This document shows, piece by piece, positions 10,316-26,859 of a stretch of DNA of 64,000 nucleotides; the stretch's first letter is position 1, and each line of letters opens with the position of its first letter. The position numbers and the translations under genes were made by a program. The notes under the pieces are model-generated. The model saw only the letters and a list, made by a program, of their open reading frames with translations, made no database searches and had not been told where the DNA came from. The stretch lies in NCBI RefSeq assembly GCF_000024365.1, contig NC_013235.1, positions 682,001 through 746,000 of the forward strand, given 5' to 3'. This stretch comes from Nakamurella multipartita DSM 44233. Lineage in GTDB: Bacteria > Actinomycetota > Actinomycetes > Mycobacteriales > Nakamurellaceae.

Positions 10316-10335
10316 CTCTCGGACGAGCGGGAAGA

Positions 10336-10632: not shown

Positions 10633-10662
10633 CCTTCCGTCTGAGGCCGAAACCTCAGAGGT

Positions 10663-10691
10663 CAGGTGTCAACTGAACTCGGGGCAGACCC
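10663..10691. repeat. IS3 terminal inverted repeat, right
   Basis: Ends CGGGGCAGACCC; the complement begins GGGTCTGCCCCGAG and shares the TTGACAC block with the left end. The GAA at 10692-10694 repeats the GAA left of the element. Confidence 0.85.
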
Positions 10692-10755
10692 GAACTGAGA
10701 CGACGAGGCCTTGGTGCAGCGGGGTGAGACCAGCGACGATGAGCCGCCGGGGCGG

Positions 10756-11211
10756 TTAGAATCCGCGCGTCCGACCGTTGGTCCTATGTGTGGCCGGTGG
10801 AGTCGCGTGCGGCCATCCTGCGTATCTAGGATCGACATACACCCGCTCCTGAGTTTGTGGGTGTCGCTGTTGCGCCTGCCATGCTGCGAATTGTTGGCTG
10901 GCCTGCCACTGGGCGTACTGCTGGGCCCGCCATTCCCAGTTGCGGCGGTCCTGAGCTGCGTTTTTCCTCTTGACCATGGCGTTCGCAATGCCAAAGATCG
11001 CCCAGTAAAGCAATAGCCAGAGCGCAGCGTTCACAACGATATCGAGAATTATCCCTACACCGAGGACGGGTGTTCCTCGCCGTGAGGAGAGCTGGAGCAG
11101 CAAGGGCGCAGCACCTGCGACGATGCCGATAACGACTCCGCCGATCTTCCAGGTTCGCACGCCGCTGGGAGAGATCCCGTGGGGAGCTGGAATGGCCGGC
11201 TGGTGGTACAC
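10756..11211 (-). CDS. Small two-helix membrane protein, unknown function
   Basis: The 151-residue product from GTG 11211 has two hydrophobic segments (about residues 20-35 and 45-70: GIILDIVVNAALWLLLYWAIFGIA). A charged, Gln/Trp/Ala-rich cytoplasmic tail with repeated WQAQQ-type units follows. GAGGGGG precedes the GTG by 7 bases; an open frame extends upstream to 11340 but its predicted peptide looks random. It lies between the IS and the cargo membrane protein, in the variable left part of the element. I recognise no family. Confidence 0.5.
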   Translation of the reverse strand: MYHQPAIPAPHGISPSGVRTWKIGGVVIGIVAGAAPLLLQLSSRRGTPVLGVGIILDIVVNAALWLLLYWAIFGIANAMVKRKNAAQDRRNWEWRAQQYAQWQASQQFAAWQAQQRHPQTQERVYVDPRYAGWPHATPPATHRTNGRTRGF

Positions 11212-12033
11212 GACAACGCCCCCTCGGTTGATGCTATGTCCAAGTGAACACCGTCGAGCCCCGTTGAGGCATTCCCTCGATTGGGTGGGCTGTCGTACCT
11301 CGACCGGGGAACCGTGGGGGGAACCGGGCGGGTAGGCCACGCCATATGTGACGTATTCAGTCGGCTCTCACCACTTCCTCAATCAGCATGGACGCCCGCT
11401 TCCGTCACTCGTTGCAACGGGGCCCGGTCGTCCCTGGCTGGATGCGGCTCGGTGCGGGCATCGAAACCTCGGGCCGGTGCTCTTCGATGCGAACGCGGAT
11501 CACCCGACAGGGTGAACGTCTTTTCCGTCATCCTCGCTCGTGGCGACGTCGAGGACCGCCGCGATTCGTCGGAAGTCGGCGTTGGTCGCGGTGACTTCTC
11601 GGTGCTCGCGTCGTCGCCCGTGGGCGCCACCGCTGCTGTGGCAGCCCGTGACCCCCCCCAGTTGCTGCCAAGATACGGAAGCTATGTGCGGCAACGGGGT
11701 TTGACACGTCCCGCAGAGTTGTGCGCTGGGTGCTTGTTACCAGCCAACAAGCTCTGGGTCTAGTCACAGACCATGGGTGCGGTCTTAGGGGGCTCGGGTA
11801 TGCGGGGATCAGGACCGGACCAGTATGATGCCTCAAGCCTTAAAGCTCACTCACGGCGACCGGCTGCCGTCCCGGATCGGAAAGTATTTCTATTGGGGGT
11901 TTAGGAGTATGCGAGCGCGACGCGAAGACAACTACCCACGGGCTAAGTTGGCTGCCTATTCAGTGATATGCCGAACTCTATACCCTGGAGCAATTAGGCA
12001 ATTCCAACCTCGGCCAGGAGCGGGATTCGCGCA
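11212..12033. other. Long non-coding or decayed stretch in the left part of the element
   Basis: About 820 bases with no convincing gene. Open frames on both strands are short and lack ribosome-binding sites, codon bias or recognisable motifs. Composition shifts toward lower GC near 11,800-12,000. An AGGAG at 12016-12020 serves the next gene. It may hold promoters or remnants of lost cargo; I see no clear repeats. Confidence 0.4.
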
Positions 12034-13569
12034 ATGACAGCTGCCGCCAGTTTGGGCCCCGGTAACAGTGGAGATCCAGATACGACGACAGCGGCAGACC
12101 ATGCGAGCGCCGCAACCGTCGCCATAGTTATTTGCGCGAACCTCCTGGCTATTGTCGCAACCTTCGGCGTGCTCGGCGTTATCGGAAAGGCATGGAATTC
12201 GTTCGCTCTATCAGTTCAGTCACAGCAGTTTCCGGTCGCCGGAGTAATACTCGCAGTGTCCATGATCGCCGGGGCAATCGTCCTTTCGTTATTCGATCTC
12301 GGAACCTTCGATGGCGTTGGATGGAAGTCTACGACGGTTGCATTTCTGCCACTTTGCTGCGCCCGCGCCGCTGCCGGGTGCGCCTCCGCCATCGTCTTCT
12401 GCTATCTGGCTCACGACGTACTTCCTTGGGAGCTTGGCAGCACCGCCACTTGGTTTACGCACTTGGGCACGACTTTCGCGGCCCTGACCGGCGGGTTGTT
12501 CGTCGAGTGGGCCTGGAAAACGTTGGTTGACGGGCACCGGCCTATCGCGGAATCAAGAAAGGACCTAAAGCAGAGTCAAGTGGTGGTGATGATCATGATC
12601 ATCGCGTCGAGCACCTGTGCGGGCCTCGGAGTCCTTCTCTTCGAGCGAAGCAGTAGTTCTCCACCCCGATCCTCAAGCGCAGGGTCGATTACTGTATTGA
12701 CTGGCCGAACAGACGTGCCGGTGGTTGCTCGAGTTGAAATTCTAAGAGGTGTGTCGGTGAACAACTTGAGTTCCAAGCACGAGATTGACGGCTGGTCGAC
12801 GACTTCTGTCGACCGCCCCGTTGGGGCCGCGGTCGTTACTATACAAGCACAGAACCCGACAGAAGAGAAGATCTCGTTCGACGTTGATGTACTGGCCTCG
12901 GGGAAAATGCGCATGGTTTCTCAAATTGAAGGGTATCAGGGCCGTTTTAGCGATTCCGTATTGATCGCACATCCCAAGAGCTGCGATGACAGCGGCGTTT
13001 CTCAACTTGAGACATCAGACTACACCAAGGACTCCCGCTACTCACAGGTTGCTCTAGCAAAATTCAATATAGAGCCACATGGGACGGTCAGTGTCGACAT
13101 TGGCGTTACGGGAGAATTTTCGTGGTATTCGGATCTGCGCACCAACTCGTTCGTCTCTCTCCCGACAGTGAGCGCGGACTACGGGTCGAGTTGCCTGGTC
13201 GTCCAAGGGGGCAGCGGCGCCATCGTGAGGACCCCTTCGGACTTGACTGCATCGGTCGGAATTGACGCCAGAGTCGGCTTGGAGGGCCATGTCGAATCGC
13301 AGCCCGTTCTTGCAGATCCAGCAAAGCTGGTTTGGGAATCGAAGCTGAGGGATCCGAATTCAACCGCGCAGGATAAGTCGGAACGAATAGGGACTGGCAT
13401 CTCATCGTTAAGTCCTTCGTATACGGTTACCACCGACGCGACGAAGCAGGCAACAGACCGGGGCCTATTTCTCGCAGGCATCCTGTCGAGTGCGGCCGTA
13501 GCCTTCCTGGTTCTCGGATTCGACAAGTGGCAAGAGGGGCGCCTTCGCTTGTCCGGTGACATGTCTTGA
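12034..13569 (+). CDS. Polytopic membrane protein with large extracytoplasmic domain, element cargo
   Basis: The 511-residue protein has five predicted membrane helices in its first 205 residues (about 27-50, 68-88, 102-126, 141-161, 182-203). A Ser-rich linker and a domain of about 260 residues of beta-like sequence follow (roughly 212-473), then one more helix near the C-terminus (475-499) and a short basic end. The gene is visibly AT-richer than its surroundings and contains TTA leucine codons (12289, 13408), rare in such genomes, pointing to recent acquisition. It lies where AICEs carry cargo. I recognise no family; host defence, exclusion or surface sensing are possible but unsupported. 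Confidence 0.65.
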   Translation: MTAAASLGPGNSGDPDTTTAADHASAATVAIVICANLLAIVATFGVLGVIGKAWNSFALSVQSQQFPVAGVILAVSMIAGAIVLSLFDLGTFDGVGWKSTTVAFLPLCCARAAAGCASAIVFCYLAHDVLPWELGSTATWFTHLGTTFAALTGGLFVEWAWKTLVDGHRPIAESRKDLKQSQVVVMIMIIASSTCAGLGVLLFERSSSSPPRSSSAGSITVLTGRTDVPVVARVEILRGVSVNNLSSKHEIDGWSTTSVDRPVGAAVVTIQAQNPTEEKISFDVDVLASGKMRMVSQIEGYQGRFSDSVLIAHPKSCDDSGVSQLETSDYTKDSRYSQVALAKFNIEPHGTVSVDIGVTGEFSWYSDLRTNSFVSLPTVSADYGSSCLVVQGGSGAIVRTPSDLTASVGIDARVGLEGHVESQPVLADPAKLVWESKLRDPNSTAQDKSERIGTGISSLSPSYTVTTDATKQATDRGLFLAGILSSAAVAFLVLGFDKWQEGRLRLSGDMS

Positions 13570-13586
13570 AAGAGTAGAGAAAGTCC

Positions 13587-14021
13587 TCACGAAGCAACCA
13601 GGTGGGTTCCGTCGTGGACCCGGACGTGCGGGATGTCGCTACCCGGCAAGGCGTCGTTGACACGCACGGCGTAGGCCGGGGTCATGCGAGCCAGGGCGTC
13701 GGCGGGCTCTAGCCAGGCAACCTCGGTTGCTTCGTCGCTGATTCGCGCTTGGCCGGCCTCGACAGCGCACCTGAAGACGAGGGCGACGATCCCCCTGGTC
13801 ATGTTCTTGTAGACGCCGGTGAGGGGACCTACCGAGACTCGGATGCCGGTCTCTTCCAGTACCTCGCGATAGACGCCCTGTTCGAAGGTTTCTTCGAGTT
13901 CCAAGACCCCGCCCGGGGGTTCCCAGTGTCCGTTGTCGTGTCGTTTGACCATGAGCACCTGGCCGGCATCGTTGAGCACGACTCCGGCGACCGATACAGA
14001 GTGCGGCTGGGTGCCAGGCAT
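13587..14021 (-). CDS. Nudix hydrolase, Pif-like (element immunity factor candidate)
   Basis: The 144-residue protein has the Nudix box GGVLELEETFEQGVYREVLEETGI (residues 37-60), matching G-x5-E-x7-REUxEExGU. ATG 14021 follows AGGAGAG on the minus strand. It is divergent from a GntR-type repressor gene, as pif, a Nudix-motif gene of the AICE pSAM2, lies in that element's regulatory region near korSA. Pif blocks redundant transfer between cells that carry the element. Assigning that role here rests on domain and context; a housekeeping nucleotide hydrolase is the alternative. Confidence 0.75.
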   Translation of the reverse strand: MPGTQPHSVSVAGVVLNDAGQVLMVKRHDNGHWEPPGGVLELEETFEQGVYREVLEETGIRVSVGPLTGVYKNMTRGIVALVFRCAVEAGQARISDEATEVAWLEPADALARMTPAYAVRVNDALPGSDIPHVRVHDGTHLVAS

Positions 14022-14064
14022 GAACCACTCTCTCCTCGTGTGGGTTGATCCTGCGATGATGACA

Positions 14065-14078
14065 CGAATAGACGAGTG
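14065..14078 (+). promoter_or_regulatory. Candidate GntR operator, copy 1 (before gntR)
   Basis: CGAATAGACGAGTG shares TAGACGAGTGGAGGAG with the sequence before the SCO3933-like gene (14957-14972). It overlaps the region just upstream of the gntR ribosome-binding site and sits between the divergent Nudix and gntR genes, fitting autoregulation. The left half of the palindrome is degenerate. Confidence 0.5.
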
Positions 14079-14086
14079 GAGGAGCG

Positions 14087-14872
14087 ATGATCGACCAGCT
14101 CGATGCGATCGATCGGCACAGTGATCGTGCTCCCTACCGGCAGATCGCCGATTCGCTTCGAGCCGCCATCGCCTCGGGTGATGCGGCGCCGGGCTCGAAG
14201 TTGCCTTCCGAGTCTGTGCTGATGGAGCGGCTCGGGGTTGCCCGGATGACGGTCCGCCAGGCGATCCAGGAGCTTCGGGCCGAGGGACTTGTGGTCGCCG
14301 AGCATGGTCGTGGGGTCTTCGTCCGGACAGCTCCCCCAGTTCGCCGGCTCGCCTCGGATCGGTTTTCACGGCGGAAGCGGGAAGCAGGCAAAGCAGCCTT
14401 CATCGCAGAGGCCGAGACCAGTGGGTACGAAGCATCGGTGGACCAGATCGAGGTCAGCAGGATCTCGGAGGCTCCCTCGTTCGTGGTGGAGCGGCTCAGG
14501 ATGTCCACTCGGGATCTTGTCATCAGACGGTCGCGAAGGTACTTGGCCGACGCTCGTCCGGTTGAGCTGGCAGTGTCCTATATACCGGTGTCAGTCGGTG
14601 CAGGTACCGCAATCGAGGCCGTTGACTCAGGTCCGGGCGGGATCTATGCGCGGCTGGAAGAGACGGGCCACGTGCTCGGGGAGTTCGTCGAGGAGGTCGG
14701 AGCGCGCATGCCGACGGTCGACGAACGCCGCCGACTCGAACTGCCTCCCGGAACGCCCGTCATCACGCTGGTGCGAACCGCTTTCGACCTCTCGGGGCTT
14801 CCCGTCGAGGTCTGCGACACCGTGAAGGCTGCGCCTGCGTACGTCTTGGAGTACCGGTTCCCGGCGAAGTGA
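14087..14872 (+). CDS. GntR/HutC-family repressor, KorSA-like
   Basis: The 261-residue protein has a winged-helix GntR domain (YRQIADSLRAAIASGDAAPGSKLPSE, VARMTVRQAIQELRAEGLV; residues 17-75) and a UTRA effector domain (about 105-255). In AICEs the GntR-type KorSA keeps the element integrated by repressing the activator and its own gene; this gene holds the same position between Pif-like and transfer genes. A strong GGAGGAG sits before ATG 14087. CTC-TAG-GAG boxes occur before it and before the next gene. Confidence 0.85.
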   Translation: MIDQLDAIDRHSDRAPYRQIADSLRAAIASGDAAPGSKLPSESVLMERLGVARMTVRQAIQELRAEGLVVAEHGRGVFVRTAPPVRRLASDRFSRRKREAGKAAFIAEAETSGYEASVDQIEVSRISEAPSFVVERLRMSTRDLVIRRSRRYLADARPVELAVSYIPVSVGAGTAIEAVDSGPGGIYARLEETGHVLGEFVEEVGARMPTVDERRRLELPPGTPVITLVRTAFDLSGLPVEVCDTVKAAPAYVLEYRFPAK

Positions 14873-14912
14873 TCTGACGACCGCCACAACTCTGTCGGCA
14901 CCTCTTGTAACT

Positions 14913-14926
14913 CCTCTAGGTGAGTG
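14913..14926 (+). promoter_or_regulatory. Candidate GntR operator, copy 2
   Basis: CCTCTAGGTGAGTG contains CTC-N5-GAG. A second copy lies 40 bases downstream, so the pair may bracket the promoter of the transfer operon that starts at 14975. Confidence 0.6.
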
Positions 14927-14952
14927 TTACTGTCCGAACTCATCCGGGTACA

Positions 14953-14966
14953 GCTCTAGACGAGTG
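14953..14966 (+). promoter_or_regulatory. Candidate GntR operator, copy 3
   Basis: GCTCTAGACGAGTG contains CTC-N5-GAG and runs into the GGAGGAG ribosome-binding site of the SCO3933-like gene. Shared consensus with copies 1 and 2: YTCTAGRYGAGTG. Confidence 0.6.
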
Positions 14967-14974
14967 GAGGAGTT

Positions 14975-15313
14975 ATGCAGTTTCGGGTGGACACGGACGG
15001 GATGACGTTCATCGTGGGCGGGATCCGGGGGGTGATGGATTTCGAGACGAAGGTCCAGGTGCTGGACAAGTCGTCGGGGGTGCCGCTGTTCGACGTGGAT
15101 GTGATGGCGGTGCTGACCGGCGAGCGACCGGAGCAGTTGACGGTGCGGGTGGTGGGTCAGCCGTCGGGGATCGAGATAGGCACCCGCGTCCGCTTCCGGG
15201 ACTTGTCGGCGCGGACGTGGGAAATGGGCGACCGGCACGGGGTGTCGTTCAAGGCCAGCCGGGTCGAGCCCTGGACCGCCGGCCGCTCATCGGGTGATGG
15301 GAAGGCGGCATAG
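14975..15313 (+). CDS. SCO3933-family small regulatory protein
   Basis: The 112-residue protein starts MQFRVDTDGMTFIVGG and contains LTVRVVGQPSGIEIGTRVRF and LSARTWEMGDRHGVSFKA. This is the signature of the SCO3933 family found between the regulator and the FtsK gene of many AICEs. Its molecular role is not settled; the short beta-rich design suggests a nucleic-acid or partner-binding OB-like fold. It opens the transfer-replication operon, preceded by GGAGGAG and two GntR boxes. Confidence 0.8.
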   Translation: MQFRVDTDGMTFIVGGIRGVMDFETKVQVLDKSSGVPLFDVDVMAVLTGERPEQLTVRVVGQPSGIEIGTRVRFRDLSARTWEMGDRHGVSFKASRVEPWTAGRSSGDGKAA

Positions 15314-15315
15314 TC

Positions 15316-16698
15316 ATGTCGTCCGAACCGTCCCTGGTCGACGAGCTGTGGGAATCGCTCGTCACGGCCGTCATCGCCGCCGGAGCACTCCTGTGGTGGC
15401 TGCTGCGCCGGCCCTGGCTGCTCGGCGCCACTCTGCTCGTGACCGGCGTGGTGCTGGTCGGCGGCTGGCTGGTCGGCGTCCTGGTCCTCGGTCTCGCACT
15501 GATCGGCGTGGCCGGCCTTCGCGGGCTGCGTCCGGACCTGTTCGCCCGGCTGGTCTCTCGACCGTTGCGGCGGGCGCAGACCGGGTCGCGGTATCGGCGG
15601 GACTGGACCCGAGTCAGCGACTTGTGCGGCCTGACGAAGGAACTCGACGGCCGAACCCTGCACCCGGACCTGCTGCGCGTCGAGGTCGGTGATGTTTTTG
15701 ACCGGCTGCTGCTGCGGATGGTCACCGGCCAGGCCCTGGCCGACTACGAACGCGCGTGTCCGGAACTCGCGTCGTCGCTGGGTGGGCATCTGGCCCGGGT
15801 GTGGGCGGACAAGCCGGGCCGGCTGTGGCTGGAAGTGATCCGCGACGACGCCCTGGCCGACATCTTGCCGGCCCGCCCCATCCCGGCCACTGACGAGGTC
15901 GACCAGATCGAGATCGGGGTGCGGGAGGACGGCCGGCCGTGGGTGCTGCGGCTGCTGGGCACGCACGTGTTCGTCGCCGGGGTCCAGGGCGCCGGAAAGG
16001 GGTCGGTCATCTGGTCGGTCCTACGTGGGCTGTCCCGGTCGATCCACTCCGGGGTGGTGCAGGTGTGGGCGGTCGACCCGAAGGGCGGGATGGAGCTGGC
16101 GTTCGGCCGGCCCCTGTTCACCCGGTTCGCCTGCGAAACCACGGCCGCGATGGTCGAGCTGTTGGAGGACGCGGTGATGGTGATGGACGCCCGGTGCGCC
16201 CGGCTGGCCGGTGTGACCCGCATGCACCATCCCACGGTCGATGAACCGTTGGTCCTGGTGATCGTCGACGAACTGTCCACCCTGACCGCGTACGAGCCCC
16301 ACACCAAGCTGCGGACCCGGGCAACCGCGGCGATCTCGGCGCTGCTTGCCCGCGGCCGAGCGGCTGCGGTCGTCGTCCTGGCCGCCGCGCAGGATCCGCG
16401 GAAGGAGGTCGTCAGCTTCCGCTCGCTGTTCCCCACGAAGATCGCTTTGCGGTTGGACACCCCGAGTCAGGTCGACATGGTCTTGGGCGACGGGATGCAT
16501 CAGATGGGTGCCCTGGCGGATCGGATCCCGGCCGGCCGGCCCGGCGTCGGTTACGTGACCGTGGAGGGCATCCGGGAACCCGTGCGGGTCCGCGCCGCCT
16601 ACGTCGCCGACGAGCAGATCCACGCCCAGACCCTCGACTACCCCGCCCCTGTGGCTGACCCGGCCTTGCTCGCTGTCGATGGCGGTGATCCGCAATGA
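15316..16698 (+). CDS. FtsK/SpoIIIE-type DNA translocase (TraSA/TcpA-like coupling ATPase)
   Basis: The 460-residue protein has two or three N-terminal membrane helices (about 14-72), then an FtsK-type motor with Walker A GVQGAGKGS near residue 221 and Walker B LVIVDEL near 313, and AAAQDPRKEVV with a sensor-like region. Within AICEs such a protein (TraSA) moves double-stranded DNA; in ICEBs1/Tn916-type systems an FtsK-like protein is the coupling ATPase to a channel. Here both interpretations are open because a VirB4-type module follows. It starts 2 bases after the upstream stop and overlaps repSA by ATGA. Confidence 0.88.
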   Translation: MSSEPSLVDELWESLVTAVIAAGALLWWLLRRPWLLGATLLVTGVVLVGGWLVGVLVLGLALIGVAGLRGLRPDLFARLVSRPLRRAQTGSRYRRDWTRVSDLCGLTKELDGRTLHPDLLRVEVGDVFDRLLLRMVTGQALADYERACPELASSLGGHLARVWADKPGRLWLEVIRDDALADILPARPIPATDEVDQIEIGVREDGRPWVLRLLGTHVFVAGVQGAGKGSVIWSVLRGLSRSIHSGVVQVWAVDPKGGMELAFGRPLFTRFACETTAAMVELLEDAVMVMDARCARLAGVTRMHHPTVDEPLVLVIVDELSTLTAYEPHTKLRTRATAAISALLARGRAAAVVVLAAAQDPRKEVVSFRSLFPTKIALRLDTPSQVDMVLGDGMHQMGALADRIPAGRPGVGYVTVEGIREPVRVRAAYVADEQIHAQTLDYPAPVADPALLAVDGGDPQ

Positions 16699-18263
16699 CC
16701 GGCGCGGTGTTGACGTCGGCGGTGGTGGTGCCGGCGGCGCGGGTGATGGTGCAGGACGGGCAGGTCGACGAGGCCACGGCCCGGGAGGTGATGCGGCGGT
16801 TGGTGTCGCCGGAGTTCCGGGCGTGGCGGCGGCAGGTCCGCGGCGCCGGGTTCTGCCACCGCCCGGTCCGGGTCGCCGGGCAACGCTACCGGGACGGCGC
16901 ATCGGGTCGTGAGGTGCTGTTCTCGACGCGGACGGAACCGGACTGTGCGTTGTTGATCCGCTGCGGCAATCGCCGCGGGTCGGTGTGCCCGCCGTGCAGC
17001 CGGGAGTACAAGGGGGACGTCTGGCATCTGCTGCATGCGGGGACCGCCGGCGGGACCAAAGGCGTCCCCGAACAGGTCGCGTCGCATCCGATGTGGTTCC
17101 TGACGGTGACCGGTCCCGGGTTCGGTCCGGTTCATGGCGCGACGTGTGGGCGCGGGAGGGCAGGCCGGAGCGCCAGCGGAGGCCGGACCGGACGCGCCGG
17201 TGACCTGTGCGTGCACGGCCGGGGACGAACCTGTGCCCATCCTCATGCCGACGATGATCCACAGCTGGGGGAACCGATCTGCCCGGCCTGCTACCAGTAC
17301 CTCGCCGCGGTCGCGTTCAACTGGCGCTCCCCGGAGTTGTGGCGCCGCTTCATGATCTCCCTGCGCCGCCGGCTCGCCGCCGGCCTGGGCATGAGCGAGG
17401 CCGCGTTCGGCCGACAGCTGCGGCTCAGCTACGCCAAGGTCGCCGAGTTCCAGAAACGCGGGATCGTACACTTCCACGCGATCATCCGCCTCGACGGCAC
17501 CGGCGACGGCTACCCACCCGCCCCGGTCACCGTCCCCGACGAGCTGTTCACGGCCGCGGTGCGGCAGGCCGTCGCCGACGCCACGGTCACCGCCACCCTC
17601 GGCGACCACGCGGTCCAGCTCGGGTTCGGCGACCAGATCGACATCCGCCCCCTCCGACACGGGATCGACGAGCACTGCGCCGACGGTGTTGTCGATGACG
17701 GTGCCGGTCCGGTGACGTCGGGGATGGTCGCGGCGTACATCGCGAAGTACGCGACGAAGGCCGCGGAGGACTTCGGCCTGGACTCCAGGGTCCGGACCGC
17801 GCTGATCGCCCGGCAGGCCGGGTTACGACCCCACGTCGCGGCGATGATCCTGGCCGCGGAGCAACTCTCGGCGCTGCCGGGGTACGACGGTCTGCTGCGG
17901 TGGGTGCACATGCTCGGCTTCCGCGGGCACTTCACGACCAAGTCGCGCCGGTTCTCGGTCACCCTCGGCTCCCTGCGGCAGGCCCGCCGCGACTGGCGCG
18001 CCGCCCGGGCCGAGAAGTGCGCACCGGCGGCGCCTGATGACGCCGACGACATGGAGTGGCCGGCGCCCGATTCACAGCCGGGCTTGTGGGACGACGAGAC
18101 CTTGGCCGGCGGCGCCGGTGATGACGAGCCGGTTCCGGTGGTCGGTGAGTGGCGGTTCCTGGGGCTGGGTTACACGAACCCGGGGGATGCGCTGCTGGCC
18201 GCGTACGAGCACGCCGACCATCTGGCGGCGTTGGAGTTCCTGCGACAGGAGGCGCGGACATGA
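16695..18263 (+). CDS. RepSA-type rolling-circle replication initiator
   Basis: The 522-residue protein has a Cys cluster (CGNRRGSVCPPC near residue 90), motif FLTVTGPGFGPVH (about 135-147), the HUH-like metal motif in KRGIVHFHAIIRL (about 255-268), and a tyrosine motif YIAKYATKAAE (about 348-358). This is the pattern of AICE/pSAM2 RepSA initiators, which nick an origin on the excised circle. It could also supply the relaxase activity for single-strand transfer, since no separate Mob relaxase is found in the element. It overlaps ftsK by ATGA and the next ORF by 4 bases. Confidence 0.88.
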   Translation: MTGAVLTSAVVVPAARVMVQDGQVDEATAREVMRRLVSPEFRAWRRQVRGAGFCHRPVRVAGQRYRDGASGREVLFSTRTEPDCALLIRCGNRRGSVCPPCSREYKGDVWHLLHAGTAGGTKGVPEQVASHPMWFLTVTGPGFGPVHGATCGRGRAGRSASGGRTGRAGDLCVHGRGRTCAHPHADDDPQLGEPICPACYQYLAAVAFNWRSPELWRRFMISLRRRLAAGLGMSEAAFGRQLRLSYAKVAEFQKRGIVHFHAIIRLDGTGDGYPPAPVTVPDELFTAAVRQAVADATVTATLGDHAVQLGFGDQIDIRPLRHGIDEHCADGVVDDGAGPVTSGMVAAYIAKYATKAAEDFGLDSRVRTALIARQAGLRPHVAAMILAAEQLSALPGYDGLLRWVHMLGFRGHFTTKSRRFSVTLGSLRQARRDWRAARAEKCAPAAPDDADDMEWPAPDSQPGLWDDETLAGGAGDDEPVPVVGEWRFLGLGYTNPGDALLAAYEHADHLAALEFLRQEART

Positions 18264-18592
18264 CCGTGACGAGACTGGCGTTGGACGGGCACGGGTCGGT
18301 GCTGGTCAAGGCGCTGAATGAGGCGATCACCGCGACGATGAACGATTTCGGTGGCCGGCACGGCTGCGGGCCGATGCACTGGTATCTGCGGGAGGTCAAC
18401 GGCTTCGACCGCGGCGACGTCATCGGCTTCCCGGGCGGCCCGAACGACCACGACCCCGCCGCCGGGATGAGGCTCAGCGAAGCGTGGGCCGGCCTGTTGG
18501 GCCTGGTCGAGCGGGATGACGAGATCAACGGCTACCGGTCCTGGACCGGCACGGCCGGCAGCAGCCGCATCGAGATTTGGTGCCGGACATGA
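18260..18592 (+). CDS. Small element protein, unknown
   Basis: A 110-residue product beginning MTVTRLALDGHGSVLVKALN, with a central CGPMHWYLREVNGFDRGDVIGFP and an acidic C-terminal region. The ATGA overlap with repSA indicates translational coupling. No motif is recognised. In AICEs this position often holds small accessory proteins to Rep or Tra. The codon pattern is the normal high GC3 of the operon. Confidence 0.6.
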   Translation: MTVTRLALDGHGSVLVKALNEAITATMNDFGGRHGCGPMHWYLREVNGFDRGDVIGFPGGPNDHDPAAGMRLSEAWAGLLGLVERDDEINGYRSWTGTAGSSRIEIWCRT

Positions 18593-18831
18593 GTGGCAGG
18601 CGCCGGCAGTTGGCGCTGTTCGATCTGCCCACGCCGACTGGCCGACGGCCGGCCCGCGACCGACTGACCGCGACGGCGGCCGAACCGGACGACGGGGCGG
18701 AACCGGCGACGCCGATTCTGGGGGCTGCTCCGACTGCGGCGCCGAATCGGTCGGGGCGTAGCGGGTCAAGGGTGCCCGCAGGGCATCGCGCAGCGACGCG
18801 CAGCGCCCTTGACGCGCGTAGCCCCGACTGA
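18589..18831 (+). CDS. Small basic/disordered protein, unknown (marginal)
   Basis: An 80-residue frame coupled by ATGA to the preceding gene. The sequence is Ala/Arg/Pro-rich and looks disordered, with LALFDLPTPTGRR near the start. Its last 27 codons run into the large inverted repeat at 18750-18829, which argues that the end may be constrained by structure rather than protein. It may be a real accessory protein or a chance extension. Confidence 0.4.
   Translation: MSGRRRQLALFDLPTPTGRRPARDRLTATAAEPDDGAEPATPILGAAPTAAPNRSGRSGSRVPAGHRAATRSALDARSPD
18750..18829. repeat. Large inverted repeat with internal hairpins between Rep and T4SS genes
   Basis: The arms are 18750-18775 (GTCGGGGCGTAGCGGGTCAA...) and 18804-18829 (complement GTCGGGGCTACGCGCGTCAA...), 26 bases each with few mismatches. 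The spacer holds another stem, TGCCC-GCA-GGGCA (18773-18785), and a GCGCAGCG direct repeat. The fold would be a cruciform or a branched stem. Position downstream of repSA suggests a nick site/origin (dso, oriT or sso) or an RNA attenuator; neither is shown. Confidence 0.7.
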
Positions 18832-18960
18832 ACAATCAGCGCCCCCGGAGCAGCACCCACCCAGCACGACGAGCACGACCACGACACACATTCGAGATCC
18901 ACCGACCCGGTGGGTCTATTCGGCGACCCCTCGGGTCGCCCCGACAAAGGGAGATGCGAG

Positions 18961-19293
18961 ATGGGCGGATTGTATGGTGGTCTCCGCACGGAGATCATCC
19001 AGTTGGCGGCGCCGGTGGCGGTGGACACGTCGGGGATCGGGAACTGGCTGCGGGACAACGCGGTCAAGGTGATCCTGATCGTGATCGGCCTGGTCATCCT
19101 GATGGCGTCCCGCCGCGGGGACCACTCCCGGGTGGTCAGCGTCGTCGGGCTGTCGCTGATCGGGCTCATGGTGCTGGGGATCGCGTTCTCCGGCTCCGCG
19201 CTGGATGTCGGGTACTGGCTGGCGAAGCTGTTCATCCCGAGCCTGGCCACGCCGGGTGCCCCGTCCACCGTGACGCCGACGACGGGTGGGTGA
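18961..19293 (+). CDS. Small two-helix membrane protein (T4SS subunit, possibly pilin/VirB2-like)
   Basis: The 110-residue protein has an amphipathic N-terminal segment (EIIQLAAPVAVDTSGIGNWLRD), then two membrane helices (AVKVILIVIGLVILMAS; VSVVGLSLIGLMVLGIAF) and a Pro/Thr tail. The layout (short, two helices, first in the module) fits VirB2-like or TcpD/E-type subunits of Gram-positive channels. No sequence motif proves it. AAAGGGAGATGCGAG precedes ATG 18961; an in-frame start 51 bases upstream is less likely. Confidence 0.55.
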   Translation: MGGLYGGLRTEIIQLAAPVAVDTSGIGNWLRDNAVKVILIVIGLVILMASRRGDHSRVVSVVGLSLIGLMVLGIAFSGSALDVGYWLAKLFIPSLATPGAPSTVTPTTGG

Positions 19294-19298
19294 GCGTG

Positions 19299-19787
19299 AT
19301 GCGGATCCGTACCGATGATGAGCTGCGCCGGGTCGATGCGCGGTGGCTGGGGCCGCCGAGGGTGTCGTTTCCGTGGCCGGCGACCCGGTACGTCGCCTAC
19401 GGCGTCGGCTTCCTCGTGTTCTTGACGGTGGGCTGGGTGTTCGCCCGCTTCGTCGAAGTCAGCTTCTGGACCATGCTCTACACGCTGATGATCACCATCG
19501 GCATCACGGGGTGGGTCTGCAAGCGGATCGACGACGAACGGCCGTTGTCGACGCTGCCGGCGGTGCTGTGGGCCGAACTTGGCACCCCCCGCCACTCCCC
19601 GCACGAGCAGCCGACCACCTCGACGGTGTCCTGGGTCGGTCTCACGTTCGTCCTGACCGACGCGGTGAACGCCGATCGGCGACACCCACCCGGCCTGCTC
19701 AGCATTCCCTCCGAGCCGGCCCGGCCGGCCATGGGCCGACGGCTCGGTCTCGACCCCTCCCGGGCGGTGATCTCCGATGCGGCATGA
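19299..19787 (+). CDS. VirB3/TcpE-like membrane protein of the conjugation module
   Basis: A 162-residue protein with two adjacent membrane helices (about residues 28-46 and 52-72) and a soluble C-terminal part of about 90 residues. It lies directly upstream of, and overlaps by 11 bases, the VirB4-like ATPase gene, the normal place of VirB3 (ConD, PrgI-like) in T4SS operons. The assignment rests on topology and position. ATG 19299 is used; a GTG three bases earlier is possible. Confidence 0.55.
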   Translation: MRIRTDDELRRVDARWLGPPRVSFPWPATRYVAYGVGFLVFLTVGWVFARFVEVSFWTMLYTLMITIGITGWVCKRIDDERPLSTLPAVLWAELGTPRHSPHEQPTTSTVSWVGLTFVLTDAVNADRRHPPGLLSIPSEPARPAMGRRLGLDPSRAVISDAA

Positions 19788-22539
19788 CCGAAACCCCAAG
19801 ACCGACAAGCAGTCCCCGAAGATGCGCCCGGCGAAGGCGCCGGGGTGGGCGAAGGCCTGGGAGCCGGCGGCGGCACGGTTGCCGTTGCGGACCCGGCAGG
19901 TCGTCGGCCACGTCACCCTGACCGGCAACACGGGGACGGCGTGGTACCGGCTGGATCCGGTGCCGTGGTCGTTCCGGCCGGACCGGGACCGTGAGCAGCA
20001 CATCCTGAACCAAGCCGCTGTGTTGGCTGGGTTGTCGGGGCAGTCGGTGCGGATCCGCGGCACCCAGGTGCCGTTCCCGGTGCGGGAGTGGGCGCAGGCC
20101 CACCACCAACTGGTCACGCAGCGGCAGGCCGCGTTCGGGGCGGTGCCGTTGCCGTGCTGGCCGGACCTGCTCGCCGGGGAGCAGCGGCAATTCCTCGGTG
20201 AGCACCTGGCCGAGAAGCAGGTCTACCTGGGCGTGGACTATCTGCACCGCTCCCCGCTGGCGCAGCTCGCCGCCGGGCTGTTGCCCCGGTCGTGGCGGCC
20301 GTTGGCCCGGGAACTCAACGCCCAGCAGGGCAAGCTGGCGGCGTTGGACACGTTGATGGCGCGGCCGGGGATGCGGGGCCGGCCGGTCACGGCCGGGCAG
20401 ATGGCGTGGCTGCTGCACCGTTCCACCCACCTCGGCTTCCCCGCACCACGACTCCGGTCGGAGCCGGACGTGACCGACTGGGACGCCGGGGATCTGGCCG
20501 GTCTGCTGGACCAGGTGTCCTGGACCGCGGAACCCTTCGCCACCACGCTGCGCGTCACCGGCATGGTCGACGGCCGCACCCTGTCCCGGCATGTCGCGAT
20601 CCTGACGGTGGGCCGGATGCAGCCGATGACGATCCCCCAGGTGGATCTGCCGTGGATGGCGATCCCCGACCAGTTGGGCATCCCGCTGGAGTGGTCCGCG
20701 CACGTGTTCGTGCGGCACGACCACGAGGTGCGGGAGCAGCTGCGGCGGGTGATGTCCCGGATCACGTCGCAGACCAAGCATTACCAGGTCGAACACGACC
20801 AGGACCCGCCCACCGCGCTGCGGGAGCAACACGACCTGGCCCTGCAGGTCGAGGCGGAACTGTCCGACACCCAGGACTTGTCGGCGAGCCGCGCCCGCGG
20901 CTGGTGGCGCCTCGCCGTCTCCGGCACCAGTGAAACCGAGTGCTTGGAGAACGTTGAGCGGGTGGTCACGGCGTATGCGCGGCGGGTGCAGATCGAGCAC
21001 ACCTACGGGCAGCACGACCTGGCCCGGGAGTTCCTGCCCGGGGAACCGGTCCGGATCCGCGCCCACCGCCGCGACCTCCCGGTCCGGGCCGTCGCCGCGG
21101 GTGGCGCCGCGATCACCTCCACGGCCGGGGATCGGACCGGGTGGAACATCGCCCGCGCGGTGCTCGATGGGCGCACCCCGGTGATGTACGACCTGTGGGC
21201 CAACATGGAACGGTTCGATGTCGCCGGCTACTACCCGATCGTCGCCGGCCTGGGCGGCGGCAAGTCGACCCTGATCGGCGTTGTCATCGGCAAGACCGGC
21301 GCCGCCGGCATCCCGTGGACGTGCGTCGACCCCGCCGGCCGCCTCGGCCGCCTGGCCCGCACCGCTCCTCTGCGCTCGCATGCGCGGGCGTTGGACCTGG
21401 TCAACGGGCACCCCGGCTCCCTGAACACGTACCGGCTGGTGGCCGAACCCCACCCGGACGATTTCACCATCCAGGATCTGGCCGACCTGGAAGACGCGGA
21501 CCTGGCAGCGCTGGGCGTCGATGCCGCCGACCTTGGCACGGTGACTCTGGACGATCTCGACCAGCAGCTGGTCGAGGGACTGCGGGACCGGTGGTTGCAG
21601 CGGGCCCGGGTGCGGGCGCAGGCCGCCCGCCGCCGGCTCACCGTGGACTCCCTGACGCAGGTCCTGCCGGCGTCGCTGGTGGTGCGGGGTGATCAGGCGC
21701 CGCACGTCACGACGGAGTTGCTGCTGGCGGCGACGCTGGTGGATGCGGCGGATGGGCCGTTCGCCGGCCGGCCCAAGCATCCCGGTCTGGTCATCGAGGC
21801 GCTGCGGCAGTCCCGGACGGAGCATCGGCAGGTGGCGTTGACCACGGCGGAGCTGCTGGACTCGATCCGGCACGAACCCTTGCCGTCGCTGCTGTTCCCG
21901 GAACGCGACGAGCACGAGGCGGTCGCGTTCGACCGGCAACTGATGTTCTTCTCCACCAAGGGCATCGCCCTCCCGGATCAGCACGTCGGGCAGGAGTACT
22001 GGGGCGACGAGGCCCGGCAGGGTGTCGCGATCCTGAACCTGGCGTCGTGGTTGTGCCTGCGGTGGGTCTACGGCCTCCCCGCCGGGCAACGCAAAGGGGT
22101 GGCCCTGGACGAAGTGCACTTCCTGGAGCAGCTCTCGTCGGGCCGGTTGATGCTGACCGAGTTCGCCCGCAACACCCGCAAGCAGAACCTGGCCGTGCTC
22201 GCCGCCAAGCAGGAGGAGGCGGCCGGCTCCGACAACGACACGCTGCGCAACTTCGTCGGCGGCGCGTTCCTCGGCCGGATGGACGACGAGCAAGCCGCCG
22301 CCCGCGCATTGGGCCTGGTGCAGATCCCGACCGGCGTCGGCTACGAGCAGGCGCTCCTGGACCTGCCCCGGCCCACCGACGACGCCGAGGACGTGCCCAG
22401 GCAGTTCCTGTTCTACTCCCGCGGAGGCGCCGGCTGTAAGGAACTGATCGAGATCGCCCGCGACGGCGACCATCTCGACTGGCTCTGGACCGCCCTGGAA
22501 TCCGCCCCCGGCCAAACCTTCCACCGGGCCGCGTCATGA
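19777..22539 (+). CDS. VirB4/TraC-like conjugation ATPase
   Basis: The 920-residue cytoplasmic ATPase powers assembly and transport through a T4SS-type channel. Walker A is VAGLGGGKSTLIG (about residues 489-501), Walker B is GVALDEVHFLEQ (about 773), followed by ARNTRKQNLAVLAAKQE, the conserved region after Walker B. The N-terminal half is the long poorly conserved VirB4 N-domain with WMAIPDQLGIPLEWSAHVFV. The size is typical (800-950). It is followed by a VirB6-like gene with ATGA overlap. True AICEs lack this protein. Confidence 0.82.
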   Translation: MRHDRNPKTDKQSPKMRPAKAPGWAKAWEPAAARLPLRTRQVVGHVTLTGNTGTAWYRLDPVPWSFRPDRDREQHILNQAAVLAGLSGQSVRIRGTQVPFPVREWAQAHHQLVTQRQAAFGAVPLPCWPDLLAGEQRQFLGEHLAEKQVYLGVDYLHRSPLAQLAAGLLPRSWRPLARELNAQQGKLAALDTLMARPGMRGRPVTAGQMAWLLHRSTHLGFPAPRLRSEPDVTDWDAGDLAGLLDQVSWTAEPFATTLRVTGMVDGRTLSRHVAILTVGRMQPMTIPQVDLPWMAIPDQLGIPLEWSAHVFVRHDHEVREQLRRVMSRITSQTKHYQVEHDQDPPTALREQHDLALQVEAELSDTQDLSASRARGWWRLAVSGTSETECLENVERVVTAYARRVQIEHTYGQHDLAREFLPGEPVRIRAHRRDLPVRAVAAGGAAITSTAGDRTGWNIARAVLDGRTPVMYDLWANMERFDVAGYYPIVAGLGGGKSTLIGVVIGKTGAAGIPWTCVDPAGRLGRLARTAPLRSHARALDLVNGHPGSLNTYRLVAEPHPDDFTIQDLADLEDADLAALGVDAADLGTVTLDDLDQQLVEGLRDRWLQRARVRAQAARRRLTVDSLTQVLPASLVVRGDQAPHVTTELLLAATLVDAADGPFAGRPKHPGLVIEALRQSRTEHRQVALTTAELLDSIRHEPLPSLLFPERDEHEAVAFDRQLMFFSTKGIALPDQHVGQEYWGDEARQGVAILNLASWLCLRWVYGLPAGQRKGVALDEVHFLEQLSSGRLMLTEFARNTRKQNLAVLAAKQEEAAGSDNDTLRNFVGGAFLGRMDDEQAAARALGLVQIPTGVGYEQALLDLPRPTDDAEDVPRQFLFYSRGGAGCKELIEIARDGDHLDWLWTALESAPGQTFHRAAS

Positions 22540-24962
22540 CCCGCGTCCGCCGCCGGCCCCGCACCACGGTCACCATCTTGGTGGTGCTGGGCTGCTGGCT
22601 GCTCGGTGTGCCCGGCTCGGTGATGATGCTGGCGGTCGGACTGCTCCTGCTCGTCCTTCTGGTTCATCGGCTCGGCCGGCCGGTGTACGTCGTGCAGCGT
22701 TTCGGCCAGCCCGAGTACCTGGTGCAACGCCGGACCTGGATCCGGCCACTCGCGATCGCCACCGTCGTCGGGCTGCTCCTTTTCGCTGCTGCCCCACCGG
22801 CCGGTGCGGACCCGATCGGACCGTCGGTGCCGAACGCCACGGACTACTGCCGGCTCGCCCCACCCGCCGAAACACCCGGGTCCGGAGTGGCCGGGTTCCT
22901 GGATCCGCAGGCCGGCCTGCCGTTCGACGGCACCGCCTACGGCGACCACGGGTACGCCGGGTTCTTCTGGTGGTCCTACGACCCCGGCTGCGTCAACAGC
23001 GTCACTCAGCTGGTCGGGATCCAGTCCCCCTGGGACGCTTCGGGGGCGTCGCAGTCCACCCAGCTGGGGAACTGGCTCCTCGGCGGCGCCGTCCTCTTGG
23101 ATGCCTGGGCGACCGGGATGCGGGCCCGCGCCCTCGACCCGGACACGTTCAGCAGCCTCGACACCTTCATGGGCACCGTCGCGACCGCCGGGTACGCGGT
23201 GCTGATCCAGCCGTGGGTGTGGCTGCCCCTGGTCATGCTCGGCCTGACCGTCCTGACGTTGGCGATCCGCGGCAACCTCCCGGAGGTGTTGCGCCGGGTC
23301 ACCACCGCGGCCGCCGGCCTGGTCGTCGTCACCGTCGCGGCCGCGGCGCCGATGGACCTGATCCGCAGCGCCGACCAGGCCCTGGTCGACGCCCAGCAAC
23401 GCATCGACACCCAGGTCTTGAGCCGGCTCCCGGCGGACGTCCTGCCGCAGATCCAGCACTGCGACTTCGACCAGACCGCTCTGTATGAACCGCGCTTCGA
23501 CGACGAAGGCCAGTTAAGGGTGGCCGGCACGGCGTGCACGAACAAGTACACGCCCGACCCGAAAGACCCGGTCAATGCCGACTACCTGCGGCGCTGGCTC
23601 TACCCGGAAGTATTGGTGCGCAACACCATCCAGCGGTACTGGCAGCAGGGCATGATCGGCTCGCAGAACCTGACCGGCCCCGACGCCGACCTCGGCGCCC
23701 GGTTCCTCAACGGGCAGGCCGTCAACCTCAAACTGCCCGACCCGACCAAGATTCAGCAGAACGCGCCGGCCGGCGCGGTCTGGTGCACCTACCAGGACAA
23801 CAAGCAGGTCTGCGGCCGCAGCAACAAGCCCGGCCCGCCCGGCAACGTCTTGGCGGCCACGGAGTCCGAGTACCGCTCCGCGATCCAGGACGCCGGCCCC
23901 ACCATCTACCCCTACATCCAAGGACGGGCCGGGAACCGCACCGCGGCCGGGTTCAGCGCCCTCGCCGCATCCGCAGCCGCCGCACCGTTCCCCGCCGCCG
24001 CCTACACCGCCGTCCTCACCGCCCGGTTGCTGCTGCGGCTCGCCCTGATCGCCGGCCTGTTCGTCGGCATCGGCATGATGGTCCGCCCGCACCTTGCCCG
24101 CCGCGTCCTGGGCGTCACGGTGAGCAGCCTGCTCGTGGTGATCATGTTCAGCGCGGCCGGCGCCCTCATGACCTACCTGTCCATGGTCATGCTCAGCCCC
24201 ACCACGCTCGCCGGGTACCAGATCGACCCGAACTCCGGCGTCATCATCCTCGCCCTCGCCTCGGTCATCGCGTGGCTGCTGACCCGGCCGATCAAACGGA
24301 TCACCGGCATGTTGTCCTACGCCGTCACCGGCAACCCGCACCAGCTGTCCGAGCAGCGGCGCCGGGCGATGGCCGGCCTGCACCGGCTCACTCCACTGCC
24401 CCGCTGGCGCCGCGGGACCAGTCACCGGGTCAGCGACCCGCAGGAGAACCCGACCGAACCGGTCACGCCGACCGAGCCGGTCCGGCCGAGCCGCCCCGAG
24501 CAGGTCACCATCGTCCGACGCCGCACCACCCCGGAACCGGCCAAGCCAACCGCCGGATCGGCACCCGGCCCGATCACTCTCGAGCCGGCGACCACGACCC
24601 TCCCCCGGATCACCCCTGCCGTCACCAGCCGACGAGCAGTGGATGAGCCCACCCGGGCGATCCCGGCTGTTGCTGCTGCGATCCCGGAGCCGCACGTGGC
24701 GGCCGAGTCGGCTGGGCCGGTTACCGGGTGGCGGCCGCCGGTCGCCCATCTGCACCGGCAGGTCTGGAATGGCCGCGGCTGGGTCCTCGCCGACGACGAT
24801 CGCGTGTTCCACCCCGCACGCACCGACCGACCGGTGTCCGCGCCGGTCGATGAGACCGCGGTGTTCCGGCCCCCGGATCCGCCGGCGTGGGCCGACCATG
24901 GCCGCCCCGAGACCCGCACCACCCGCTGGCCCGCCGCCGACGACCCGAGGAGGCAACGATGA
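22536..24962 (+). CDS. VirB6/TrbL-like polytopic channel protein
   Basis: The 808-residue protein has N-terminal helices (about 8-48 and 70-88), a helix near 188-206, a block at 222-272, an extracytoplasmic region with several cysteines (about 290-455), then four helices (about 466-590) and a 200-residue Pro/Arg-rich cytoplasmic tail. VirB6-family proteins (ConG in ICEBs1) form the inner part of the channel. Homology cannot be shown by eye; topology, size and place after virB4 support it. Confidence 0.7.
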   Translation: MTRVRRRPRTTVTILVVLGCWLLGVPGSVMMLAVGLLLLVLLVHRLGRPVYVVQRFGQPEYLVQRRTWIRPLAIATVVGLLLFAAAPPAGADPIGPSVPNATDYCRLAPPAETPGSGVAGFLDPQAGLPFDGTAYGDHGYAGFFWWSYDPGCVNSVTQLVGIQSPWDASGASQSTQLGNWLLGGAVLLDAWATGMRARALDPDTFSSLDTFMGTVATAGYAVLIQPWVWLPLVMLGLTVLTLAIRGNLPEVLRRVTTAAAGLVVVTVAAAAPMDLIRSADQALVDAQQRIDTQVLSRLPADVLPQIQHCDFDQTALYEPRFDDEGQLRVAGTACTNKYTPDPKDPVNADYLRRWLYPEVLVRNTIQRYWQQGMIGSQNLTGPDADLGARFLNGQAVNLKLPDPTKIQQNAPAGAVWCTYQDNKQVCGRSNKPGPPGNVLAATESEYRSAIQDAGPTIYPYIQGRAGNRTAAGFSALAASAAAAPFPAAAYTAVLTARLLLRLALIAGLFVGIGMMVRPHLARRVLGVTVSSLLVVIMFSAAGALMTYLSMVMLSPTTLAGYQIDPNSGVIILALASVIAWLLTRPIKRITGMLSYAVTGNPHQLSEQRRRAMAGLHRLTPLPRWRRGTSHRVSDPQENPTEPVTPTEPVRPSRPEQVTIVRRRTTPEPAKPTAGSAPGPITLEPATTTLPRITPAVTSRRAVDEPTRAIPAVAAAIPEPHVAAESAGPVTGWRPPVAHLHRQVWNGRGWVLADDDRVFHPARTDRPVSAPVDETAVFRPPDPPAWADHGRPETRTTRWPAADDPRRQR

Positions 24963-25663
24963 ACGCACGCACCGCCTGGCGCTGGCCCCTCCGCAGCCGC
25001 GGCCGGCTCATCGCCCTGGTCCTCGCCGCCCTGGCCCTGGCCCTGCTCACCAAGACCATCCTCGACTCGGGCGGCAGCACCGCTGCAGCGCCGGCCGGCC
25101 CAACCGGGGCGCCGGGCATCGTAGCGGCGTCCACCGGGACGACCAGGCCGACCGCGGTGCCGACCAACCCGGCGGAGTGCGTCGCGCTGTGGGTCAAGGG
25201 TCCGGATCGGGACGCCTGCCTGTACCGGGAGTACGGCATTACGCCATCCGACCACCCGAGCCGGAACCCAGGGACCCGGTCGTCGACCACCCCTGTCATG
25301 ATCGGCGTCCCGGTCACGACCACGATCGAGGGTGCGGCGTCCGGGTACGTGCCGGAGACCGACCAGGCCGCGGCCCTGGAAGTCGCGGCGCGGTTCGTGG
25401 ACGCCTGGTACGCCGGTGGCTCCGATCAGGCCTGGCAGGACCAGGTCAGCCGGTGGGCCGACCCGACCCTCGCCAGGCAACTGCCCACCCTGAACCGGGA
25501 CCTCCTGCCAGGGAGCCGGCGCGAAACCGAACCGGCGATGCGCGCGTTCCAACCTGGACTGGCCAGCACCGGCGTCGCCACCAACAACGGATCCCTCGCC
25601 CTGACCGTGATCTACACCGACGCCGGCTGGCGGGTCGTCACCGTCACCGTGGAAGCGCCATGA
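24959..25663 (+). CDS. TcpC/VirB8-like bitopic conjugation protein
   Basis: The 234-residue protein has one N-terminal membrane helix (about 18-36), a disordered Thr/Pro-rich linker, and a compact C-terminal domain starting near residue 125 (AALEVAARFVDAWYAG...GSLALTVIYTDAGWRVVTVTV). The latter reads as an NTF2-like fold, as in TcpC/ConB and VirB8. It is coupled to the genes on both sides by ATGA overlaps. Its likely role is to link the channel to the cell wall side. Confidence 0.65.
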   Translation: MNARTAWRWPLRSRGRLIALVLAALALALLTKTILDSGGSTAAAPAGPTGAPGIVAASTGTTRPTAVPTNPAECVALWVKGPDRDACLYREYGITPSDHPSRNPGTRSSTTPVMIGVPVTTTIEGAASGYVPETDQAAALEVAARFVDAWYAGGSDQAWQDQVSRWADPTLARQLPTLNRDLLPGSRRETEPAMRAFQPGLASTGVATNNGSLALTVIYTDAGWRVVTVTVEAP

Positions 25664-26844
25664 CCAGCGCACCTTCTCGCCGAATGCGTGGGCTGGTGCT
25701 CGGCCTGGCCGGCGTCGTGCTCACCGGCTGCACGTTGGCGGGCGCCCGCGGCGCCACCATCAACACCATCAGCCGGCCCACCACCGGCACCGGCGACTGC
25801 CAACCTGCCGCCGTCACCGGCACCGCACCCGGCCTCGACCCCGCGCAGGAAGCGAACGCCAAGACTGTCCTCGGGGTCGCCGTCGGTCGCGGCCTCGGTC
25901 CGACCGGCGCGGCCATCGCGGTCGCCGCGGCTCTGGCCGAATCCAGCCTCTACAACTACGCCAACGATGGCACCAGCACGCTGGTCGGGTCCGCCGAAGG
26001 ACGTCAGCTCAACGACTCGGAACGGGCCGTCGCCCGCCAATCGCTGGGCTACCCGCACGACAAGGTCGGCAACAACCTCGACAGCATCGGCCTGTTCCAG
26101 CAACGGCCCATGACCGGCTGGGGCACCCCGGACCAGCTGATCAACCCGGCCACCGCCACCGGCAAGTTCCTCGATCGGATGGTGACCGTCGCCAACTGGC
26201 AGACCGTCTCGCCCTGGACCGTGGCGCAGAAGGTGCAGGGGTCCCCGTCCAGCGACGGCGGGATCTACCGCGATAGCTACCAGCAGGCCACCAACATCGT
26301 CGCCGCCCTCAACACGGGATCCGCGCCCACCATTACGAGCAAAGGGCCGAGTGTCGTCGCCGAGGTCGCGGCCGGTACGACCTGCGGCCAGCCGGCCGCC
26401 AACCGAGCAGGCGCGACCGGGCCGGCGGCCTGGGGCGGCTACCAGAACGGACGCATCCCCGCGACCGCGCTGTGCCCGGTCCCATCCAGGCCGGCCCTGC
26501 AACTTGAATGCGGCGCCGCGACCGCGTTCGACCACCTCAACACCGCGTTCAAAGCCCAGTTCGGGCAGGACATCGGCATCACCGACGGCTACCGCTCCTA
26601 CGACGAACAAGTCCAATGCCGACTCGAAAAGGGCAGCCTGTGCGCCAACCCCGGCACCTCCAACCACGGCTGGGGCAAAGCCGTCGACATCGGCGCCTGC
26701 TGCGGCATCAACACCGGAACCGGGCCGGCCTTCGACTGGCTCACCACCAACGCCAGCCGCTACGGCTGGAACCACCCCGCCTGGGCCCAACCCGGCGGGT
26801 CCAAACCCGAACCCTGGCACTGGGAATACGGCGCCATCTCGTAG
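25660..26844 (+). CDS. Conjugative wall hydrolase: lysozyme-like + M15 peptidase lipoprotein
   Basis: The 394-residue protein is exported as a lipoprotein (lipobox VVLTGC near residue 24). Residues about 65-215 are a lytic/lysozyme-like domain (AAIAVAAALAESSLYNYAN, SIGLFQQRPMTGWG), and the C-terminal 120 residues an M15/VanY-like D,D-peptidase with DGYRSYDEQ, SNHGWGKAVDIG and WHWEYG metal ligands. T4SS-type elements of Gram-positives carry such two-domain enzymes (CwlT, VirB1 equivalents) to open peptidoglycan locally. It is the last gene of the module, before xis. Confidence 0.85.
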   Translation: MTSAPSRRMRGLVLGLAGVVLTGCTLAGARGATINTISRPTTGTGDCQPAAVTGTAPGLDPAQEANAKTVLGVAVGRGLGPTGAAIAVAAALAESSLYNYANDGTSTLVGSAEGRQLNDSERAVARQSLGYPHDKVGNNLDSIGLFQQRPMTGWGTPDQLINPATATGKFLDRMVTVANWQTVSPWTVAQKVQGSPSSDGGIYRDSYQQATNIVAALNTGSAPTITSKGPSVVAEVAAGTTCGQPAANRAGATGPAAWGGYQNGRIPATALCPVPSRPALQLECGAATAFDHLNTAFKAQFGQDIGITDGYRSYDEQVQCRLEKGSLCANPGTSNHGWGKAVDIGACCGINTGTGPAFDWLTTNASRYGWNHPAWAQPGGSKPEPWHWEYGAIS

Positions 26845-26859
26845 GAAGGAGGAACTGTG

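Follow-up and report, generated by a model that had tools for sequence, protein, structure and literature searches.

A hairpin-forming block in the Nakamurella multipartita genome probably functions as a single-strand origin (sso) by acting as a single-stranded-DNA promoter. It lies within a 64,000-nucleotide stretch of NC_013235.1 (positions 682,001 to 746,000; hereafter the window), and it belongs to a sequence family that is widespread among the mobile elements of actinobacteria and also present in those of some proteobacteria. The proposal is grounded in the fold of the block, the covariation of its stems, the existence of the family, the geometry of a -35 and a -10 element, a bubble at the latter, and a strict strand relationship with the rolling-circle initiator RepSA.

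The whole foldable unit, the proposed promoter and origin, spans ~139 nt (18720-18858), with the + strand as the putative active form. Folded as DNA (18720-18870), the unit has a z-score of -7.0, and none of 200 dinucleotide shuffles folds as well. The shorter segment 18730-18850 has a DNA z-score of -3.6, with all 200 dinucleotide shuffles folding worse; with the outer arms, 18720-18732 and 18846-18858, added, the value is -7.0. As RNA the hairpin also folds better than 200 of 200 dinucleotide shuffles (z -5.2). An earlier sequence-only reading had described two 26-base arms around an inner repeat, overlapping the end of a marginal open reading frame. These elements are all present: read off the sequence, 18750-18775 and 18804-18829 agree at 21 of 26 positions; the repeat GCGCAGCG occurs at 18789-18796 and 18798-18805, where it makes two of the three apical hairpins; and the reading frame (TTG start, 84 aa, 18577-18831) exists, with no match to its product in a Pfam search. 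The hairpin is real, but it was drawn too small, a longer outer stem and a bubble with a -10-like sequence in it having been overlooked.

From the outside inward, the DNA fold consists of the distal stem (18720-18732/18846-18858), then a short stem, next an asymmetric bubble with 18832-18838 (ACAATCA) as its 3' side, and then an 11-bp stem in which 18747-18757, the left half of the spacer stem, pairs with 18821-18831. Inward of this stem there is a GTA bulge on each side, a GCG stem and, lastly, the conserved core. The core is a 49-nt cloverleaf on the + strand (18765-18813), defined by covariance model, covariation and DNA fold, in which a stem formed by GTCAAGGG and CCCTTGAC encloses three hairpins with C(GCA)G triloops: TGCCC-GCA-GGGCA (18773-18785), TCGC-GCA-GCGA (18786-18796) and CGC-GCA-GCG (18797-18805). 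All three are present in the minimum free energy DNA fold and backed by covarying pairs.

A covariance model (R1) was built from 34 cores. It matches the window at 18764-18814 with 79.5 bits, and at E <= 1e-3 (the E-values are rough) its hits place the block in 85 of the 297 genomes searched from this actinobacterial class, some of which carry multiple copies; N. multipartita carries one. In the core alignment 96.5% of cells are paired and both-side changes occur in 12 of the 20 core pairs (59 such cells); none of 500 shuffles reaches this covariation, and sliding the pair partners abolishes it. The second apical hairpin is paired in 100% of cells, with both-side changes in all four of its pairs. 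Intergenic cores with 80-93% identity are also found on plasmids of Curtobacterium, Cutibacterium, Mycobacterium, Micromonospora, Nocardia, Azospirillum, Acidiphilium, Sinorhizobium and others, that is, in both Actinomycetota and Alphaproteobacteria. The impression, formed from the window alone, that similar blocks occur in other actinobacterial elements is borne out by these genome and plasmid searches. Two convincing copies were found on viral contigs (L086 and L083), and none in the phage records searched. Rfam, queried at gathering and at permissive thresholds, contains no such family and returned chance miRNA-type matches far below gathering scores; a literature search with the core sequence returned only primer matches. 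The family is apparently undescribed in the searchable literature.

Which nucleic acid is the object of selection can be judged from the loops and from the pairs. C(GNA)G accounts for 143 of 187 predicted hairpin loops in 74 unique cores, the middle base being free. Trinucleotide loops of this type are exceptionally stable in single-stranded DNA, whereas RNA generally favors GNRA tetraloops. G-U pairs are scarce: 7 of 679 core cells, compared to 50 of 901 tRNA pairs at the same loci (Fisher p 5e-7). Together the triloops and the rarity of G-U pairs speak for selection acting on folded DNA, with the GNA loops favoring the + strand. The same two features, along with the variability of the neighboring genes, disfavor the suggestion that the block is an RNA switch separating replication from channel gene expression.

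The conserved stem has a -35 box in its 3' strand, CCCTTGAC: TTGACG (+ strand, 18809-18814), which served as the anchor for an analysis of the flanking sequences. Sixteen nucleotides past this hexamer stands the -10-like element AACAAT (18831-18836), identified by the signal common to the family and by its place in the window fold, where A(-11) to T(-7) are unpaired inside the bubble at 18832-18838. The position of this element and the fold together predict a transcription start region at 18838-18848 (+ strand coordinates), centered on ~18843. To assess the signal, 51 non-redundant units (flanks less than 75% identical) were picked blind to the -10. The pattern NANNNT occurs at a spacer of 16 in 19 of these and at a spacer of 17 in a further 15 (34 of 51 together), compared to 0-4 units at every other spacer; on the mirror side, where the same TTGAC is read on the other strand, no unit has NANNNT at 16 or 17. 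Spacers 15-18 together account for 38 of the 51 units, against a mean of 4.0 and a maximum of 11 in 1000 shuffled runs; the pattern had first been spotted by eye in these same flanks and was counted afterwards, and its spacing specificity is sharp. The remaining 13 units have no NANNNT at spacers 15-18.

T is found at -12 in only 8% of assigned units. Sigma factors recognize T(-12) in its duplex form, and A(-11) and T(-7) on the open strand, as bases that have flipped out; retention of the latter two together with rarity of the former is therefore the profile expected of a -10 that is already open. Predicted arm-to-arm pairing in 50 units has the corresponding shape: the probability is 0.74-0.77 in the spacer just 5' of the -10, 0.20 at the -10, again 0.58-0.67 about 35-40 nt past the -35, and at background by ~47 nt (~+15), compared to ~0.2 throughout in shuffled flanks. 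The real flanks of these units fold better than shuffled ones (mean z -3.2). The modeled paired spacer, open -10 and duplex to ~+15 coincide with what RNA polymerase covers in an open complex. The window unit also shares two properties with Frpo-type promoters: one strand folds stably beyond chance, and the fold rebuilds a -35 and a -10 at a spacing of 16-18 nt.

The genetic context of the block is an AICE-type island of ~19 kb (9225-28496), recognized by alignment of its att repeats, a tRNA gene, an HTH_17 protein and an integrase-like reading frame. One boundary is a duplication of the 3' part of tRNA-Ser (~9225-9285) and the other is tRNA-Ser itself (28409-28496, tRNA search). The block lies 0.5 kb downstream of the gene for RepSA, a rolling-circle initiator of the pSAM2 family on the block's strand (16695-18263, +; PF20199, E 5.9e-141). 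Upstream of this gene there is an FtsK/TraSA-like DNA translocase (15316-16698, +; PF01580 at E 1.9e-4, under the curated cut-off), and other elements too have homologues of it close to RepSA and the block. The first gene past the block, the "channel" gene, encodes a small predicted membrane protein (18961-19293, +) with no match in a Pfam search. The island further encodes a VirB4-like AAA_10 ATPase, the HTH_17 protein (26857-27105, Pfam) and a tyrosine-integrase-like product homologous to the integrases of other AICEs (~27130-28327). A transposase-like pair of reading frames, IS3-type by reading of the translations, is located next to attL inside the island (9434-10632), and a small bacterial SRP RNA just outside it (29668-29766).

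Across the 297 genomes, 25 copies of the block in 19 genomes are no more than 25 kb away from a RepSA gene, compared to ~1.3 expected by chance. Relative to the RepSA start they lie between -16.9 kb and +2.6 kb, with one at +22.6 kb. All 25 are on the RepSA strand, the fixed orientation to a rolling-circle initiator gene that is expected of an sso; this count is confounded by codirectional AICE genes, since these genes mostly share one strand and a transcript-level element would be expected to show the same lock. Most RepSA loci examined are without the block, and the block is also present on RepSA-free plasmids. Strict dependence on repSA is accordingly rejected; of the question whether the block tracks repSA, what stands is the common strand of the near copies. 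In conserved AICEs of several lineages the block sits between rep and int, some copies being vertically syntenic, and on four plasmids and in one genome (G094) it is on the same strand as mobC or the relaxase gene. Neighboring genes have no such regularity: the nearest 5' gene is on the + strand in 19 cases and on the - strand in 10, the nearest 3' gene on the + strand in 11 and on the - strand in 21, and blocks often stand between convergent gene ends, a terminator-like position. No fixed orientation of neighbors suits expression from the folded strand, and therefore priming fits better than gene expression. A general role as an Frpo-like promoter of leading genes was considered and rejected, there being no consistent - strand gene 5' of the block.

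The initial suggestions were a nick site, a single-strand origin or an RNA switch, and it is the origin that the evidence supports. Polymerase binding, transcription and priming are steps that we infer, as follows. RepSA-driven rolling-circle replication, or conjugation, would leave the + strand single-stranded, and the displaced strand would fold into the long hairpin with its cap, a cloverleaf with C(GNA)G triloops. The fold would restore the -35 box (TTGAC) as duplex, with a paired spacer of 16-17 bp, would present the -10 pre-opened in the bubble (with A(-11) and T(-7) conserved and T(-12) not), and would provide duplex to ~+15. Host RNA polymerase could then bind the folded strand and start at ~18843 with the 5' (left) arm as template, transcribing leftwards out of the hairpin into the single-stranded region. 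The RNA, complementary to the + strand, would be the primer from which DNA polymerase extends the complementary second strand. Inverted pairs of blocks, present in some genomes, need an extra assumption under this reading: they may make an sso available on whichever strand becomes single.

Four other explanations deserve attention. The most serious is a bidirectional intrinsic terminator or insulator, in which transcripts arriving from either side fold into the long hairpin and stop. The frequent location between convergent gene ends and the great stability of the RNA form on both strands are as this explanation would have it; what it does not predict are the one-sided TTGAC-16/17-NANNNT signal, the -10 bubble, the C(GNA)G triloops, the rarity of G-U pairs and the single orientation with RepSA. 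The lack of a T-run past 18858 in the window does no more than weaken it, given that actinobacterial terminators can lack one. We regard it as unlikely to be the main function, while terminator activity as a second role is possible. Less probable still is a conventional promoter working as double-stranded DNA, with a palindromic operator, for the gene that lies 3' of the block. In the window TTGACG-16-AACAAT does point to the gene at 18961, with optimal spacing between -35 and -10, yet in many elements the 3' neighbor is on the opposite strand; the near-absence of T(-12) weakens the case, and the covarying outer arms are left unexplained.

Two further possibilities concern DNA processing, and both appear highly improbable. 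A double-strand origin or nick site (dso/oriT) for RepSA or a relaxase was suggested by the position of the block downstream of repSA in the AICE, and other copies are near MOBP relaxases. However, the same core accompanies unrelated initiators, or none nearby (as on a 1579-bp plasmid whose sole annotation is a CopG-family protein), and neither its absence from most RepSA loci examined nor its variable distance from RepSA is readily reconciled with such a site. In particular, a RepSA-specific nick site is a poor fit, since cassettes lacking RepSA carry the core too, as do MOBP plasmids and IS-rich plasmids of Alphaproteobacteria. There is just as slim a chance that the block marks the end at which a mobile element recombines or transposes, or is itself a target of such an element (IS110, REP-like). 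Inverted pairs bracket segments of 0.3-3.7 kb in two genomes (G159 and G162), one such segment occupies what is a short gap in related genomes, and IS110 or ISL3 transposases adjoin several plasmid copies; against this, most copies are single, in varied contexts and with different arms, some are vertically syntenic inside AICEs, and the promoter signal is not predicted.

Several copies have unusual surroundings. In G159 (L121-L128) at least eight segments of 0.3-3.4 kb are bounded by inverted repeats of ~450 bp with one outward-pointing block per end, and one segment sits where related genomes have a short gap; these segments are a cassette or transposon-like family without an obvious transposase. 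In G032 (contig C13, L132:2000-9300) five tandem att-like repeats of a tRNA 3' half are spaced ~1.2-2.4 kb apart, with a block ~200 bp past three of the five, PIN-type toxin-like genes inside, and no integrase noticed between repeats; they resemble cassettes without an integrase, lodged at a tRNA gene. The 1579-bp circular plasmid (NZ_CP126277.1, L039), on which a CopG-family protein is the sole annotation and no replication gene is annotated, is perhaps a satellite replicon. At four loci (L041, L047, L048 and L049) transposase genes lie 45-330 bp from the block, IS110 on three plasmids and ISL3 on one, and perhaps these elements target the block or its surroundings.

We are inclined to think, with less assurance than for the window itself, that one family of single-stranded-DNA promoters, defined by a cloverleaf cap with C(GNA)G triloops, a -35 in duplex form and a -10 held open in a bubble, provides a general start site for second-strand synthesis across Actinomycetota and Alphaproteobacteria, in otherwise unrelated ICEs, plasmids and integrase-less cassettes. 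A recognizable element would mark the strand that becomes single-stranded and flag hidden mobile cassettes. A copy on a macrolide-resistance plasmid of Cutibacterium acnes makes second-strand synthesis there testable, and the block would let one ask, in a small system, whether RNA polymerase still requires T(-12) at a -10 that is open from the start.

Aspects of the block recall several known systems. The palindromes of Streptomyces telomeres carry GCGNAGC loops, and the likeness lies in very stable GNA mini-hairpins in single-stranded DNA; unlike the telomeres, copies of the block are internal, on circular plasmids, ICEs and chromosomes, and have one conserved core with promoter boxes. On pIJ101, a rolling-circle plasmid of Streptomyces, the sti locus or minus origin is a proposed lagging-strand origin, the role proposed here for another actinobacterial rolling-circle element. 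Membership of sti in the same family was rejected, the best pIJ101 score being 14 bits compared to 45-80 for members.

Frpo/ssi are single-stranded-DNA promoters of the F plasmid and its relatives (Masai & Arai 1997, cited in PMC11541004 and PMC9849209), the Frpo fold rebuilds -35 and -10 boxes (PMC9849209), and a large Frpo survey makes no mention of actinobacteria (PMC11541004). The resemblance is that of a non-coding element, one strand of which forms a long imperfect hairpin restoring the -35 and -10 for host RNA polymerase. The block differs in its cloverleaf cap with C(GNA)G triloops, its -10 bubble and its GC-rich hosts, in having no consistent arrangement for expressing neighboring genes, and in being carried by ICEs, plasmids and cassettes in both Actinomycetota and Alphaproteobacteria. 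R1 has no match in the F leading region, nor has the block, by blastn, in E. coli genomes; the family is unrelated to Frpo in sequence, and would work like it. ICEBs1 sso1, located a short way 3' of nicK, forms three stem-loops and is active in one orientation only (PMC4595007). Like it, and like the sso of pBAA1/pTA1060, the block is found in an ICE, downstream of a rolling-circle or relaxase gene, with three stem-loops and, presumably, dependence on orientation; sso1 differs in belonging to a Firmicutes element, in sequence and layout, and in that its function was shown by experiment (PMC4595007). The nearest functional precedent is ICEBs1 sso1, and the nearest mechanistic one Frpo.
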